Source: a virus
Virus record (IMG/VR): IMGVR_UViG_3300044302_003458
Coordinates: 1-25,226 of that record
Strand: one strand, 5' to 3'
Length of the DNA: 25,226 bases
Shown here: positions 7,812-18,643 of the stretch, in pieces
Numbering within the stretch: the first letter of the stretch is position 1
Layout: every line of letters begins with the position of its first letter
Translations under genes and position numbers: made by a program
Notes under the pieces: model-generated
Database searches by the model: none
What the model was told of the DNA's origin: nothing
The model's input: only the letters and a program-made list of their open reading frames with translations

Positions 7812-8897
7812 ATGGCTACTGCTATAGAAGTCAGGGAAAAAAATTCCTTGACTGGCTGGCCTGAGTTTTGTGAGTGGGTTACATCTACCAATAACCGCAT
7901 TTATGTGGGTTGGTTTGGTGTATTAATGATCCCTTGCTTACTAACAGCAGCTACATGTTTCATAATCGCATTTATTGCGGCACCACCTGTAGATATAGAT
8001 GGAATTAGAGAACCAGTTGCAGGATCATTCCTGTACGGAAACAACATCATATCAGGAGCAGTCGTACCGTCCTCAAACGCAATCGGTCTTCACTTCTACC
8101 CAATCTGGGAAGCTGCAACCCTCGACGAGTGGTTGTATAACGGAGGACCATATCAACTCGTTGTATTCCACTTTCTCATCGGTATCTCAGCTTACATGGG
8201 ACGACAATGGGAACTTAGTTATCGACTAGGGATGAGACCCTGGATCTGTGTTGCTTATTCCGCACCAGTATCAGCCGCTTTTGCTGTATTCCTCGTCTAT
8301 CCTTTCGGACAAGGATCATTCAGTGACGGTATGCCTCTTGGCATTTCAGGCACGTTCAACTTTATGTTTGTCTTTCAGGCGGAACATAATATCCTCATGC
8401 ATCCATTCCACATGGCAGGTGTGGCGGGTATGTTTGGCGGTGCTTTGTTTAGTGCTATGCATGGTTCACTGGTTACATCTTCACTTATTCGTGAAACTAC
8501 AGGATTAGAATCACAGAACTATGGATACAAATTCGGACAAGAAGAAGAGACCTATAACATCGTCGCAGCCCATGGCTACTTCGGACGTCTTATCTTCCAA
8601 TACGCCTCCTTTAACAACTCTCGTAGTTTACATTTCTTTCTTGCTTCTTGGCCTGTTATTTGCATCTGGCTTACCTCAATGGGTATATGCACCATGGCCT
8701 TCAACTTGAATGGTTTTAACTTTAACCAATCTGTAGTTGATAGTTCAGGTAAAGTGGTACCAACATGGGGAGATGTTCTTAATAGAGCAAACCTTGGCAT
8801 GGAAGTAATGCACGAGCGTAATGCTCACAACTTCCCACTTGATTTAGCAAGTTCTGAATCAACTCCTGTTGCTTTAATTGCTCCAGCTGTAGGTTAA
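7812..8897 (+). CDS. psbA: Photosystem II reaction centre protein D1
   Basis: The full-length D1 protein has 361 residues (hosts about 360). It binds the photosystem II cofactors and is the subunit replaced most often under light stress. Numbering here is shifted by +2. All key residues are present: tyrosine Z is Tyr163, manganese-cluster ligands are Asp172, Glu191, His334, Glu335, His339 and Asp344, and Ala346 is kept at the C-terminal processing site. His192 pairs with tyrosine Z, His200 binds P680 chlorophyll, His217 and His274 bind the non-haem iron, and Ser266 lies at the QB site. The residue equivalent to 130 is Gln (Gln132), the D1:1 form. The 240s region reads [13 protein letters not shown], where host D1 usually has RETTETESQNYGY. 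Parts of the gene are richer in G+C than the flanking phage DNA, consistent with host origin. It is a single uninterrupted reading frame without intron. Confidence 0.98.
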
Positions 8898-9363: not shown

Positions 9364-9729
9364 ATGATTAAATCATTTCTTAGTGTAGCTGCTGCAAGTG
9401 CTCTTGCGGTTCCTTCTGCTTTTGCTGGTGTTTATATAAATGCTGAATCAAACGATGGATATACAGGTTCTGACTACACAGGTAGAACTATAGATCTACA
9501 TGTTGGTTATGAAGGTTCTATTAGTAAAGTTGATTACTACATTCAAGGTGGTCCTGCTTTTACAGCAGTAGCTGATGTAGATGGTACAAATTCAAGTATA
9601 TCTGGCAAGATTGGAGGTACTTTTAATGTATCTGAAAAACTTGGTATCTATGGTGAGTTTTCTGGTATTTCTATTGAAGATGCAGATAATAACTATGGAA
9701 CAAAAATAGGAGCTAAGTATTCTTTCTAA
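9364..9729 (+). CDS. Secreted outer-membrane-type beta-barrel protein
   Basis: The product has 121 residues with a clear Sec signal peptide: MIK, then a hydrophobic Ala/Leu/Val core, then cleavage after SAFA near residue 21. The mature part has alternating polar and hydrophobic strands (RTIDLHVGYEGSISKVDYYIQGG, SISGKIGGTFNV, LGIYGEFSGISI, TKIGAKYSF) and ends in Phe, the usual C-terminal signature of outer-membrane barrels recognised by BamA. About 100 mature residues would make a very small barrel or a partial one. I recall similar short secreted proteins in cyanophages without known function. Possible roles are altering the host surface, blocking superinfection or aiding lysis. It is followed by its own terminator. 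Confidence 0.72.
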   Translation: MIKSFLSVAAASALAVPSAFAGVYINAESNDGYTGSDYTGRTIDLHVGYEGSISKVDYYIQGGPAFTAVADVDGTNSSISGKIGGTFNVSEKLGIYGEFSGISIEDADNNYGTKIGAKYSF

Positions 9730-9971: not shown

Positions 9972-10166
9972 ATGAATTCTCACGTAATTACTGAATACGG
10001 CAAGCAAAACATTTTTGCAAAAGAAACAAAACCGTATATAGATAAGACTTATAAAGGATATATTGTAGAAGCCGAACGACTTAATGGGCGTTTAGCAATG
10101 ATTGGTATTGTTGCTTTATTAGGAGCATATATTACAACTGGACAAATTATCCCAATGATCTGGTAA
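9972..10166 (+). CDS. hli: High-light-inducible protein, long form
   Basis: The product has 64 residues. A variable ~30-residue stromal N-terminus is followed by the canonical motif EAERLNGRLAMIGIVALL (residues 33-50), with the Glu/Arg pair and Asn that bind chlorophyll, and the C-terminal TTGQIIPMIW. The gene starts directly after the stop of the shorter hli, and their 3' halves are similar in DNA sequence, pointing to tandem duplication followed by divergence. Together the pair would give homo- or heterodimers in the thylakoid. A bidirectional terminator follows. Confidence 0.95.
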   Translation: MNSHVITEYGKQNIFAKETKPYIDKTYKGYIVEAERLNGRLAMIGIVALLGAYITTGQIIPMIW

Positions 10167-10933: not shown

Positions 10934-11386
10934 ATGTCAACAACAGAAGAACGTTTAAACGATAACGTAAAAAGAGATGAATTAATTAATGAATGTTGTG
11001 GTAATAATGAATCAGCTAAAGAATATATCTATTTATTATGTGCTGCTTTAAGAGTTTGGGATGATGTATATGATGAAGATTATCCCGTAACTAAAGATGA
11101 TATTACAAATACTTATAAAATATTATTTATTTCATTACCTTCTAATAAATTTTTCAAAGAGAATCATGATTTATTATTTGGTCAACATTTAGTTTTATAT
11201 AATCAATGGATTGCTTCTAATAGATGGTTAAATGGTAATAAATTAGAACAAATGTATGCACATTTTTATAAAGAAGGTTTTAATGAAATAGCTCCTTTAG
11301 TAGCTTTCTTAACACAAGGTCAAGCTAAAATGGAAGAAGTTTCATTAAAACTTCGAGAAAGTTTTAAATCAGAAATAGGAGGTTAA
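10934..11386 (+). CDS. Conserved phage protein with LRVWDDVYDED motif
   Basis: The 150-residue helical soluble product has a notable segment near residues 38-48, LRVWDDVYDED, then a KDDITNTYKILFISLPSNKFF stretch. I recall an analogous pattern (RVWDDLxDxD, then LPxNPFF, then an LxxQW region) in a family of phage proteins encoded near internal virion proteins, of unknown function. The acidic cluster might bind metal, though this is a guess. It is the first gene of the 10.9-15.6 kb block and lies four bases before the large virion protein gene, whose AGGAGG ribosome binding site lies inside this gene's end. Confidence 0.55.
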   Translation: MSTTEERLNDNVKRDELINECCGNNESAKEYIYLLCAALRVWDDVYDEDYPVTKDDITNTYKILFISLPSNKFFKENHDLLFGQHLVLYNQWIASNRWLNGNKLEQMYAHFYKEGFNEIAPLVAFLTQGQAKMEEVSLKLRESFKSEIGG

Positions 11387-15307: not shown

Positions 15308-15610
15308 ATGAAAGATAAAATGTCTCATCCCACAAAAGAAGGAGAATTTATACTTCCTTTAGAATTACAATTCTCTATGCGTAAAGCAGAGATGAACGCC
15401 CAAGAGATGACATGGGAACAATTATATGGTGCTTTAATTAATTTATATTACCAACGTTTGATGGAATGGCATGCAGTTAAATCTTTAATGACAGAAGAAA
15501 ATATCAATATAGATTTTAGTATTCCTACAGATATAGAATTAAAAAAACTAGCTGATCAATTTAATTTAATAGATGAAGACGATGAGGAAGATCCTTTTCA
15601 AGCAATCTAA
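15308..15610 (+). CDS. nblA: NblA-like phycobilisome degradation adaptor
   Basis: The product has 100 residues. NblA is a small helix-loop-helix adaptor that links phycobiliproteins to Clp protease and triggers phycobilisome breakdown. Residues 14-61 align without gaps to the NblA pattern: FILPLELQFSMRK, then MTWEQL and LINLYYQRL, then VKSLM. Key positions kept are the Leu-Glu-x-Gln-Phe start (18-22), Glu37, Leu39, Gln49 and Lys58. Normal NblA is about 60 residues. Here a 40-residue acidic C-terminus (ending DEDDEEDPFQAI) is added. Starts at 15308 or 15320 are both possible, and no ribosome binding site is evident. It ends convergent with the DUF3310 gene, sharing three bases at the stop codons. 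A weaker alternative is a generic phage helix-loop-helix protein. Confidence 0.68.
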   Translation: MKDKMSHPTKEGEFILPLELQFSMRKAEMNAQEMTWEQLYGALINLYYQRLMEWHAVKSLMTEENINIDFSIPTDIELKKLADQFNLIDEDDEEDPFQAI

Positions 15611-15948
15611 CCTAATAGTTTATTTAAATACCATTTAGCTTTTTTTAAAGATTCAATTCCTCCTTTGTGTTTTTCTCTCCATAGATATTTAATAATATTT
15701 CCTTTTAAATAACCACGAAATTCTTCAGCACTAAGTTGAGCTTCAATAGCATCAATACATTCAATACTTCCAGCAGCATAGTGTATTGGTCTATCTACAT
15801 TATCAAATTGATGAAAATGAGTGTCTTTTTCGTCCATTTGATTATCAATAAATTTAGTAATATTTTCCCATTTTAAGGGAGATTCTTTAGTTATTTGATA
15901 TATATCAGTAACTTCATTTTTTTCTGCTTCTGGACCAGCCATACGCAT
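15607..15948 (-). CDS. DUF3310 protein
   Basis: The C-terminal half of this ~113-residue product matches DUF3310 (phage nucleotide-kinase-like family of unproven function): RPIHYAAGSIECIDAIEA, GYLKGNIIKYLWR, then KGGIESLKKAKWYL. I start the gene at the Met at 15948. The frame stays open upstream to 16182, but that extra stretch uses G/C-ending codons unlike the phage, while an overlapping frame there uses normal AT-ending codons. No Shine-Dalgarno sequence is visible before 15948, so translation may depend on the upstream gene. The stop overlaps the nblA-like stop tail to tail. Confidence 0.8.
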   Translation of the reverse strand: MRMAGPEAEKNEVTDIYQITKESPLKWENITKFIDNQMDEKDTHFHQFDNVDRPIHYAAGSIECIDAIEAQLSAEEFRGYLKGNIIKYLWREKHKGGIESLKKAKWYLNKLLG

Positions 15949-15965
15949 TTTAGGAGAAGTCTCGT

Positions 15966-16334
15966 CTATGCGGTCAAACCACGTCTCATTAGAGATTGTT
16001 TGAACATCTCTTCTGATGGTTTCCCTAGTGATACCAGAAGTTTTGGAGATTTTGGAGATGAACCTAGATATTGGGAAGAATCTTCTAGGGATGGAATATA
16101 TCCTGTCAATCCAACTCTTTGGCTTTTGTCTCTTTTGTTTGCTTCTATCGTTAGATTTTCTCTTCCCATTCCTGATTCGCATGCAGTTAATCCACGATTA
16201 TACTGATCATAGAGAGGAACATCATTATTTTCATTACTTATTGGTTGTCCAAAATCTTCTATTGATAAAGAAGGACAATCAAGTTCATCAATAAAATTAC
16301 CTAAGAACTTACTTTTAGATGCGTATCCAGCCAT
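15966..16334 (-). CDS. Hypothetical protein (122 aa)
   Basis: The soluble product begins MAGYASKSKFLGNFIDELD and is polar and rich in Ser, Gly and Glu, with no motif or membrane segment. It overlaps a second open frame on the same strand, but this frame has mostly A/T third positions like known phage genes, so I take it as the real one. It ends 17 bases before the DUF3310 start and probably forms a two-gene leftward unit with it. TATAAT lies only four bases before its ATG, too close for a normal promoter unless the message is leaderless. Confidence 0.6.
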   Translation of the reverse strand: MAGYASKSKFLGNFIDELDCPSLSIEDFGQPISNENNDVPLYDQYNRGLTACESGMGRENLTIEANKRDKSQRVGLTGYIPSLEDSSQYLGSSPKSPKLLVSLGKPSEEMFKQSLMRRGLTA

Positions 16335-16376: not shown

Positions 16377-16760
16377 ATGGCAAGATTCTATGATTCAACT
16401 TACGATCCTCAAAAGGATTCAGGTACTTCAGGGATTGAAGTAACAGATTTAAATCCTGAAAAAGCTTATGATACAGACTTACGTAGAGTTGATCCTGATC
16501 TAAGAGATGATTTAGGAAAAAATGAAAAACCAGATAAAGTTGCTAGATTCACAAAAGCTGTAAAAATAGCTAATGATTATAAACAAAGAAGAGGAATTGC
16601 TGAACCAACATTAAATGGAAAAACACCTATAACAAAAGCAGTTATAAATGGTGTTGAATTACCTAGTTTAAGAGGAAGAAATTATGGAGATCCAGGTGCT
16701 GGAGCCACTGAATATGCACATAAACCTAAATCTGGTTTTGGTACTTTTTATAATTTCTAG
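16377..16760 (+). CDS. Hypothetical small protein (127 aa)
   Basis: The frame opens at TTG 16350, but the natural start is ATG 16377 (MARFYDSTYDPQKDSG), since the upstream residues are out of character. The soluble, charged product has KVARFTKAVKIANDYKQRRG in the centre and a Gly/Arg-rich end (SLRGRNYGDPGAGATEY...GFGTFYNF). It is the only rightward gene in a leftward neighbourhood and its last 35 bases overlap the end of the Wzc-like ATPase gene on the other strand. The function is unknown; a small virion protein is possible. Confidence 0.6.
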   Translation: MARFYDSTYDPQKDSGTSGIEVTDLNPEKAYDTDLRRVDPDLRDDLGKNEKPDKVARFTKAVKIANDYKQRRGIAEPTLNGKTPITKAVINGVELPSLRGRNYGDPGAGATEYAHKPKSGFGTFYNF

Positions 16761-17448
16761 AATTAAGAATCAAGGCTGGAATAAAAAGATTTCTTTTTAA
16801 ATTGTTTCGTATAATTCTATTGAATTTTGTATCTGTTAAATTATTTTCGTGTACTAACATAAGTAAAAGATCTATTTCTTTATAAAATTGAGGATAAAAA
16901 TCTACTTTAGATAAGGGACATAAATCATAAATAATTAGATCTATATTTTTTAATTGATGTAGTCTTTGATTAAAAAGATTTATATTATCTTTTTTTAAAA
17001 TTTTTGTATCTAAATTGTTTTTTCTAATTCCTGCAGTAATAATTTTAAAATTATTATTAATTGAATGTATTGCTTTTTCTATAGGTATATTTTGATCATT
17101 TAAAAGTTCACATAAACCAAAAGTATTTTTTATATTTAAACGAGTATGTACATGTGTTCTTCTTATATCTCCATCAATTAATAATACTTTTAAATTCAAT
17201 GAAGAAAAAATTTTTGCTAATATTATATTTATTAAAGATTTACCTTGATTACTAAAAGGACTTGTTATTGATAAAATTTTAATTGGATAAATTTTATTTA
17301 TCAAAAAAAACAAATCATATATAAAAGAAAAATCTTTTATAGGAATATTATTTAATTTTTTAATTATAGATTTGTTTTGTTCTCTTGCATCTTTAAAAGG
17401 TTCTAAATAAGGAATTGATCCAATAATAGGAATATTATACTTTTGCAT
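16726..17448 (-). CDS. Wzc/CpsD-like (BY-kinase or ParA family) P-loop ATPase
   Basis: The product has 240 residues from the ATG at 17448, chosen over an open frame to 17583 because the extra part runs inside dcd and lacks pattern. Features follow the cytoplasmic domain of bacterial tyrosine kinases in order: PIIGSIP near the start, Walker A TSPFSNQGKS (62-71, Lys70), Walker A' LLIDGDIRR (89-97), GLCELL (111-116), Walker B IIYDLCPL (172-179, Asp175) and PALILN (224-229). BY-kinases (Wzc/CpsD) phosphorylate themselves on C-terminal tyrosines and control capsule export. This protein has only Tyr233 and Tyr236 there and no membrane domain. A ParA/MinD-type ATPase is the main alternative. It is the last gene of the leftward operon and overlaps dcd by 14 bases. 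A DNA or capsule-control role is inferred. Confidence 0.62.
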   Translation of the reverse strand: MQKYNIPIIGSIPYLEPFKDAREQNKSIIKKLNNIPIKDFSFIYDLFFLINKIYPIKILSITSPFSNQGKSLINIILAKIFSSLNLKVLLIDGDIRRTHVHTRLNIKNTFGLCELLNDQNIPIEKAIHSINNNFKIITAGIRKNNLDTKILKKDNINLFNQRLHQLKNIDLIIYDLCPLSKVDFYPQFYKEIDLLLMLVHENNLTDTKFNRIIRNNLKRNLFIPALILNSRNYKKYQNQI

Positions 17449-18022
17449 ATACAACTTTTTTAGGTTGATTTTGATATTTACCTTTACGATCTTTATAACT
17501 AACTGAACAAGATTTTCCACGGAAAAATAATAATTGTATGATACCTTCATTTGCATAAATACGATTAAATAATCCTGTTGCATTATTAATTTGTAAAGTT
17601 AAATATCCTTCCCAACCTCCTTCTGCAGGTGTAATATTGCAATGAATTCCTGAACGTGCATAACTTGATTTACCCGCTGGAATTACGGTTATATCTTCTG
17701 GTAAATGTAAACGTTCTTCTGCAACACACAAAGCATAGCCATAAGGAGGAATCATAAAATAGGTACCCTTTTCATCTTCTTTTAATTCTGTTTCTTTTAA
17801 TATGTCAGAACTAAAATTCTTTGGGTCACAATCGCCTCTTGAAGGTGTACCAAATATCAAACATTGCTTAGGAGATAAACGTATATCATAACCATAAGAA
17901 CCTAGACCATAACTAAGTATTTTACGTCCGTTTTCTTCTCTAACTACATGATCTGTAAAAGGAGCAATTAATTTATCACCTAAAGATAAAGCTTTGATTT
18001 CCCAATCACAAAGAATGCTCAT
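17435..18022 (-). CDS. dcd: dCTP deaminase-like protein
   Basis: The 195-residue product matches the trimeric dCTP deaminase/dUTPase family, which converts dCTP to dUTP for dTMP synthesis. Visible marks are LSYGLGSYGYDIRLSP (36-51), AGKSSYARSGI (116-126, with the substrate-binding Ser-Ser and Arg123), GGWEGYLTLQINN (135-147), IYANEGIIQLLFF (155-167) and SYKDRKGKYQNQ near the end. The residue at 144 is Gln (codon CAA), where the general-base Glu of deaminases normally stands in the LTLEI motif. The enzyme may therefore be inactive or altered. The gene is fifth in the leftward operon and its 3' end overlaps the Wzc-like gene. Confidence 0.93.
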   Translation of the reverse strand: MSILCDWEIKALSLGDKLIAPFTDHVVREENGRKILSYGLGSYGYDIRLSPKQCLIFGTPSRGDCDPKNFSSDILKETELKEDEKGTYFMIPPYGYALCVAEERLHLPEDITVIPAGKSSYARSGIHCNITPAEGGWEGYLTLQINNATGLFNRIYANEGIIQLLFFRGKSCSVSYKDRKGKYQNQPKKVVYAKV

Positions 18023-18055: not shown

Positions 18056-18643
18056 TCAACACAAAATGCGACCTTTTTCAGAATAAATTTCAATAAATCT
18101 TTCAGTCATTTGTGTTGGGTTATTAATAGGAGGTAAATAAACTAAAAAAGAAGTACAAGTTTTATGTTTTGTTATACCTTTACTAGTATTTTTTATTAAT
18201 AAAGGAGCTGTTTTTAAAATACAAATAGGAAAATCAAATATTTTTTGTTCATAACGAATCATGTCAGGACAATTTGTAAAATATAAACCTTGTTTTATAT
18301 CACCTGACAACCATGAATTATATAATTTTCTAAACCATACAGCATGTGATGAAACTAATGTAGGAGAGGAAGCTCTTGTCATCTTCCATTTATCATTTTT
18401 TTTATCCCAGAAATATGCTCCTCTGGGTGGAAATAAATAAACATTTCCATACCATTGTTGACAATTTAATCCATCATCAGAAGGACATAAATAATTAGTT
18501 GCTTCTACATATTTATTTGCAGTTTTAGAACTAGCAACATCTAAATCTATTCCTTCTAATAAAGCATGTGCTGAAGCAACTAAATCATAATTAGTTATTA
18601 ATTCTAAATCTTCATTTCTTTTTCTAACATCATGTATAGCCAT
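18056..18643 (-). CDS. Phage adenine-methyltransferase-like protein, motif altered
   Basis: The 195-residue product resembles the phage DNA adenine methyltransferase (Dam_phage) layout: IDLDVASSKTANKYVEA (32-48), SDDGL (55-59), WYGNVYLFPPRG (64-75) and a C-terminal half with TCTSFLVYLPP. The usual catalytic motif NPPYG reads FPPRG here, losing both the Asn and the Tyr, so classical N6-adenine methylation is doubtful. I remember similar FPP-containing proteins in cyanophage genomes with no proven activity. The gene lies two bases downstream of the preceding gene in the leftward operon. It could be a DNA-binding or repurposed methyltransferase fold. Confidence 0.5.
   Translation of the reverse strand: MAIHDVRKRNEDLELITNYDLVASAHALLEGIDLDVASSKTANKYVEATNYLCPSDDGLNCQQWYGNVYLFPPRGAYFWDKKNDKWKMTRASSPTLVSSHAVWFRKLYNSWLSGDIKQGLYFTNCPDMIRYEQKIFDFPICILKTAPLLIKNTSKGITKHKTCTSFLVYLPPINNPTQMTERFIEIYSEKGRILC

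Follow-up and report, generated by a model that had tools for sequence, protein, structure and literature searches.

A tail-less BY-kinase domain, probably derived from host Wzc, in an S-EIV1-like cyanophage

Introduction

In firmicutes, the juxtamembrane segment of the BY-kinase system belongs to CapA, a separate activator of the kinase CapB, and the penultimate phenylalanine of CapA touches the nucleotide (PMC3795738). Staphylococcus aureus CapB has an EX2RX2R motif and a C-terminal Y-cluster and forms octamers, in which the two motifs each account for roughly half of the interface (PMC3795738). CapB2 without the Y-cluster can still phosphorylate CapO, and autophosphorylation of BY-kinases is thought to free active monomers (PMC3795738).

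The Wzc proteins of Prochlorococcus and Synechococcus are one-chain polysaccharide co-polymerases of ~780 amino acids. In Synechocystis, deletion of Wzc changes both the amount and the composition of polysaccharide, and truncation of its Tyr-rich tail raises capsular polysaccharide by 19%; a Tyr tail is not universal among Wzc proteins (PMC6562117).

Here we describe a homologue of the Wzc catalytic domain, named BYK in this work, on a viral contig. The DNA analysed, referred to as the window, is the whole 25.2-kb viral record IMGVR_UViG_3300044302_003458 (25,226 nucleotides), for which an original prediction made from the sequence had proposed a phage-encoded BY-kinase. We found no phage-borne BY-kinase domain of this type in the annotated phage records or the open-licence papers searched. 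The homology to known BY-kinases is clear, and what appears to be new is the phage carrier together with the core-only architecture.

Results and discussion

The phage and the gene neighbourhood

The window represents part of the genome of an S-EIV1-like cyanophage. Among annotated phages, Synechococcus phage S-EIV1 (KJ410740) is the closest to the window and has the same gene order of lysozyme, small genes and dCTP deaminase; the psbA gene of the window, most like that of Prochlorococcus, identifies it as a cyanophage. The psbA gene (7812-8897, plus strand; 94% to Prochlorococcus at the amino-acid level) and a short high-light-inducible-like gene (9972-10166, plus strand) both lie in the structural-gene region. 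BYK is the final gene of a minus-strand block that runs from 19909 to 16726, and is inserted between the first and the last of the following genes:

16377..16760, plus strand: conserved hypothetical phage gene, convergent with BYK
16726..17448, minus strand: BYK, BY-kinase (Wzc catalytic-domain) homologue of 240 amino acids, assigned from profiles, PDB match and predicted fold
17435..18022, minus strand: dCTP deaminase, directly upstream of BYK, its 3' end overlapping the BYK start by 14 nt

The BYK frame starts with the ATG at 17446-17448 and is intact over 240 codons. Base composition is extreme, with 19% G+C overall and 8% at third positions; the chance of 240 open codons at 19% G+C is about 1e-11. 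A longer start (285 amino acids, from 17583) is disfavoured because it would overlap deeply into the dCTP deaminase gene. BYK and dCTP deaminase are likely co-transcribed. Promoter and terminator sites in the scan were no more numerous than in shuffled sequences, and PADLOC made no call for the BYK protein.

S-EIV1 belongs to the same lineage but has no BYK, and its convergent gene directly abuts, with an overlap, the end of the dCTP deaminase gene; the two genes also abut in most relatives. Seven further S-EIV1-like contigs (L073-L079) hold a different conserved 65-amino-acid ORF at this junction, which therefore is a variable cargo spot.

Two other minus-strand genes nearby deserve mention. 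The most conserved neighbour (18056-18643) encodes a 195-amino-acid protein with at least 323 relatives in viral contigs; it has no Pfam family, and phage DNA methyltransferases match it weakly (phrog_111, 2.6e-6). At 15607-16334 lies a DUF3310 protein, labelled 'nucleotide kinase' in phage-family annotation; another open frame on the minus strand (15966-16334) overlaps this gene, and the profile test covered the DUF3310 frame only.

Homologues in related phages

Viral contigs were scanned with the BYK protein, the family alignment and relatives as queries. An independent contig, L002, encodes the same protein with 1 nt difference. Four distinct phage versions emerged in all (window/L002, L027, L030 and L031), L084 being equated with L027 from protein comparison alone. 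They are about 30% identical to one another, except for one pair at 89%, and all four occupy the junction between dCTP deaminase and the convergent gene. The presence of the same gene at the same junction in L002 rules out contamination or a chimeric contig, which is also contradicted by the diverged copies in L027, L030 and L031. The gene is phage-encoded, as had been proposed.

Its distribution is patchy: 4 of 78 S-EIV1-like contigs with a readable junction carry it, and over the available bases it was found nowhere in S-EIV1 or in 12 larger S-EIV1-like records. A tblastn search of annotated phages gave no cyanophage match; the 'phage' matches that it did return belong to Staphylococcus, Listeria, Acinetobacter, Moritella or faecal contigs and look like host DNA. 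Three other viral-contig matches (L306-L308) have the usual EX2R-type motif and Tyr-bearing C-termini and, judging by these features, look like ordinary bacterial-type kinases. The viral structure library BFVD held no comparable fold.

A gene of ~150 amino acids and unassigned family accompanies the phage versions. Located far from BYK in the window (10934-11386), it stands between dCTP deaminase and the kinase gene, directly before the latter, in L027 (7314-7754), L030 (1654-2112) and L031 (2842-3300). The copies are ~40% identical, and the placement of the gene suggests gene movement or co-inheritance.

BYK groups with BY-kinases

Among NCBIfam profiles, BYK matches the BY-kinase models TIGR03018 (1.4e-16) and TIGR01007 (2.8e-15), whereas the best MinD model reaches 1.2e-3. 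The TIGR01007 scores are 56 bits for BYK and 91 bits for L027 (9e-26), against an NCBI curated cut-off of 108, and all BY-kinase profile scores of BYK lie below their curated cut-offs. As the scores are significant yet under these cut-offs, we regard BYK as a divergent member of the family. The profiles of its phage relatives likewise favour BY-kinase models. In Pfam, only the generic AAA_31 and CbiA families pass the cut-off for BYK. The nearest PDB sequences are S. aureus CapA1-CapB and CapB2 (3bfv, 2ved), with CapA1-CapB at 1.4e-10 in an alignment that begins at BYK residue 4.

An AlphaFold2 (AF2) model of BYK, built from a 47-sequence alignment that included host Wzc domains, has a pLDDT of 91, and its predicted fold is that of the BY-kinases, shared with S. 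aureus CapA1-CapB and CapB2. The best 50 Foldseek matches of the model are all BY-kinases. On a second alignment, structural Z scores of the predicted fold are 22-26 to BY-kinases and at most 15.9 to MinD/ParA proteins; the top match is to the kinase domains of E. coli Wzc and Etk (3la6, 3cio), with a Z of 26.1 over 231 residues. Residues 1-53 of the model align structurally with BY-kinases only, and not with MinD/ParA. A model of the L030 homologue, which like that of BYK derives from an alignment containing host Wzc sequences, gives predicted Z values of 23-29 to BY-kinases versus at most 15.7 to MinD/ParA.

A partition protein of the ParA/MinD type was therefore rejected, with profile E values 12-13 orders worse than those of the BY-kinase models and the lower Z scores given above. 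Host MinD was also considered as a source of BYK: picocyanobacterial TIGR01007 matches of ~270-290 amino acids, called MinD by eye from length and sequence, fail to match the phage protein in BLASTP. Profiles, PDB sequence search, tree (below) and predicted fold agree on a BY-kinase-like protein, as the original prediction held. We looked for the two observations that would speak against it, a better ParA/MinD match and a structure without the BY-kinase arrangement, and found neither.

A catalytic core with a built-in activator strand

Re-reading the sequence located every motif of the original prediction at the residues named, including PIIGSIP (residues 7-13), PALILN (224-229), Tyr233 and Tyr236. 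The main elements of the protein are as follows:

17407..17430, minus strand: activator segment, residues 7-14 (PIIGSIPY), juxtamembrane/beta-A, equivalent to the C-terminal end of CapA in the 3bfv alignment
17290..17340, minus strand: helix of residues 37-53, KDFSFIYDLFFL; the host Wzc counterpart carries QEAFRN (EX2R) with ring contacts, a motif lost in BYK
17236..17265, minus strand: Walker A, residues 62-71 (TSPFSNQGKS), catalytic Lys70 kept
17158..17184, minus strand: Walker A' (DxD), residues 89-97 (LLIDGDIRR), Asp92 and Asp94 kept
16924..16938, minus strand: Walker B, residues 171-175 (LIIYD), Asp175 kept; the DTPP that comes next in hosts is DLCP
16729..16761, minus strand: C-terminal end, residues 230-240 (SRNYKKYQNQI), where host Wzc goes on into the Tyr-rich tail

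The Walker A (GK[ST]), DxD and Walker B aspartate are all present in BYK and its phage homologues: Gly69-Lys70-Ser/Thr, Asp92, Asp94 and Asp175 are kept in all four phage proteins, and Gly69 and Lys70 are invariant across 88 host and 4 phage sequences. BYK shares with Prochlorococcus and Synechococcus Wzc the catalytic domain, these Walker motifs and the juxtamembrane segment, which is retained with changes (PIIGSIPY in the window, PxLGxIPY in hosts). In the BYK model PIIGSIPY contains a predicted strand at residues 8-12, corresponding to P-L-L-G-x-I-P-Y of the host, and a similar helix-strand (alpha-A/beta-A) arrangement is predicted for L030.

Compared with these Wzc proteins, BYK and the other three phage versions lack the periplasmic Wzz domain, both membrane helices, the ~40-residue linker, the QEAFRN (EX2R) motif and the C-terminal Tyr tail. 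The chain is thus not a full Wzc, which would combine Wzz and two membrane helices, but a 240-residue soluble domain alone, and its description as a stand-alone protein stands. The host tail has a median length of 72 residues with a median of 6 Tyr, and in 81 of the 88 cyanobacterial Wzc it contains three or more Tyr. EX2RX2R is found in none of the four phage proteins. BYK has the same losses when set against E. coli Wzc and Etk, and lacks both oligomerization motifs of S. aureus CapB. The full EX2RX2R is found in 0 of the 88 cyanobacterial Wzc and its EX2R half in 73, which makes the loss of EX2R less informative than it would be in proteobacteria. In L030 the homologue stops at the equivalent of E. 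coli Wzc residue 699, ahead of the tyrosine tail.

These features bear on two further proposals. BYK had been likened to the split CpsD partner that needs a host activator; however, a CpsD/CapB-type catalytic domain lacks the activator segment, whereas the phage chain carries PIIGSIPY as a CapA-type activator strand in cis, and its nearest cyanobacterial relatives are one-chain Wzc proteins. BYK is better described as a one-chain Wzc trimmed to its catalytic core with the juxtamembrane activator segment retained. The two C-terminal tyrosines had been suggested as autophosphorylation sites. The letters are real, but Tyr233 and Tyr236 occur in the window version only and are conserved in none of L027, L030 and L031. 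Since all four phage versions are without the Tyr tail and the EX2R motif, autophosphorylation at these residues seems unlikely from the sequence comparison.

Several residues that are near-invariant in hosts have changed, namely Pro98, Pro177, Asp184 and Gly194 in the window and Arg96 in L030 and L031, and BYK may therefore have weak activity or none. Conservation is higher in the ATPase core than in the kinase-specific parts.

Origin from host Wzc

In searches of whole cyanobacterial genomes, the top matches of BYK fall in the Cyanobiaceae, a family searched around a Prochlorococcus genome. The very best are Wzc proteins of 782-788 amino acids in genomes of 1.6-1.7 Mb (E 2.6e-28), and identity between BYK and its best host matches is 32-37%. 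Most host Wzc frames span 740-830 amino acids. Within one genus, which we take to be Prochlorococcus because the family search began from a Prochlorococcus locus, a profile of the phage family matches full-length Wzc in 40 of the 266 genomes, with E values as low as 3e-53. Sequence similarity thus points to the full-length (~780 amino acids) Wzc of Prochlorococcus and Synechococcus as the closest cyanobacterial kin.

The tree separates a group of 4 phage and 62 Cyanobiaceae sequences from 26 other cyanobacterial Wzc, with support of 97.2/99. The phage clade itself has support of 59.6/98 (SH-aLRT ~60) and long branches, which leave its exact branching uncertain; a single capture is for this reason likely but not proven. 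The origin comparison covered cyanobacteria, plasmid records and the PDB, non-cyanobacterial donors being sampled through the latter two, and the top-listed plasmid match (E 7e-12) is itself cyanobacterial. Taken together, BYK is very probably a host-derived, tail-less BY-kinase domain. Both host Wzc regions that we examined contain Wza-type polysaccharide export genes; in addition, several glycosyltransferases are encoded in one and a DSP-type phosphatase in the other.

Selection on the kinase gene

Selection was assessed on one sequence pair, L030 and L031, whose kinase genes differ at 51 nucleotides (25, 3 and 23 at first, second and third codon positions), with 30 amino-acid changes and an omega of ~0.4-0.5. 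So few replacements arose in 0.25-4% of neutral simulations, depending on the assumed transition bias. Four neighbouring genes of the same pair have 3 replacement versus 28 silent changes, and the kinase gene is faster (Fisher p 7e-7). The omega and the Fisher test together indicate a gene that is maintained yet changes much faster than its neighbours. Either weak constraint or a conflict with a variable target in the host would fit this.

Possible function and alternatives

We suggest that BYK began as the cytoplasmic catalytic domain of a picocyanobacterial Wzc, which was acquired by the forebear of a small group of S-EIV1-like marine cyanophages and trimmed to a soluble protein of ~240-270 amino acids. 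BYK would fold as a constitutively monomeric, ATP-binding Wzc-like domain with its activator strand in cis, would be produced alongside the phage nucleotide-metabolism genes, and would lack normal autophosphorylation ability. In infection, it may engage the host Wzc machinery. The simplest route would be mixing with host Wzc kinase domains so as to block or unbalance ring assembly or the phosphorylation cycle; alternatively, BYK might phosphorylate these domains in trans. The outcome would be altered polysaccharide export and an altered cell surface, from which the phage might plausibly gain superinfection exclusion or a saving of carbon.

A soluble captured Wzc catalytic domain that modulates host Wzc and polysaccharide export is the best explanation we can offer, and we judge its chances to be evenly balanced. 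That the target is the host Wzc/polysaccharide system falls slightly short of an even chance. More tentatively, the tail-less, ring-incompetent domain could be a trans-acting effector by which lytic cyanophages control host polysaccharide export in infection, either as a dominant-negative subunit or as a monomeric tyrosine kinase with constitutive activity, and conflict over the host surface would drive its fast evolution. Wzc was detectable in only ~15% of the searched genomes of the genus presumed to be Prochlorococcus, so that the proposed partner may be missing from some hosts.

Three alternatives are possible, ordered here from the strongest to the weakest. Without ring and tail, BYK might mimic the dissociated, active form of a BY-kinase and be a free, constitutively active tyrosine kinase with substrates other than Wzc, for example UDP-sugar dehydrogenases. 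We consider this unlikely. It would suit the retention of all catalytic residues, the built-in activator strand, the phosphorylation of CapO by CapB2 without its Y-cluster and the release of active monomers attributed to autophosphorylation (PMC3795738). However, the window version is degenerate after the Walker B aspartate and in the GxxPPDP loop, the substrates are putative, and fast protein change suits a binding role equally.

The better conservation of the ATPase core, the restriction of above-threshold Pfam matches to AAA_31/CbiA and the grouping with nucleotide-metabolism genes would also be expected of a repurposed P-loop ATPase that has ceased to be a kinase and, much like a MinD/ParA-like switch, now has an unrelated role in the phage. 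This is rather improbable, as BY-kinase profiles and folds clearly beat those of MinD/ParA, and the activator strand, useful in a BY-kinase context only, has been retained. A decaying, host-captured passenger gene with little present function is more doubtful still: although the low G+C content, fast protein change and patchy occurrence described above are in its favour, all four diverged frames are intact with their catalytic residues kept, second codon positions are nearly frozen (3 of the 51 changes), and omega is below 1, with a fraction of 0.0025-0.04 of neutral simulations as low. A ParA/MinD-type partition or site-determining protein, which would share the deviant Walker A P-loop superfamily and account for the weak ParA and MinD model matches, is highly improbable given the E values and Z scores above, the alignment of residues 1-53 with BY-kinases only and the failure of host MinD-type proteins to match in BLASTP.

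On the preferred reading, a captured Wzc domain that modulates host Wzc, BYK may interfere with the host cell surface instead of acting as an ordinary autokinase. If functional, it would give a lytic phage a means of influencing, from within the cell, how the host surface is assembled, and would be a naturally occurring 'core only' BY-kinase with which to study why the Tyr tail and the ring are needed. Host polysaccharide and surface genes reportedly decide which phages infect Prochlorococcus, a finding ascribed to Avrani et al. in 2011.

Elsewhere in the window, the product of the gene at 9364-9729 (plus strand) is a beta barrel like the outer-membrane proteins of cyanophages (Pfam Phage_OMP, PF24653, E 1.5e-39); it has an apparent signal peptide and is a further phage product that may touch the host surface.
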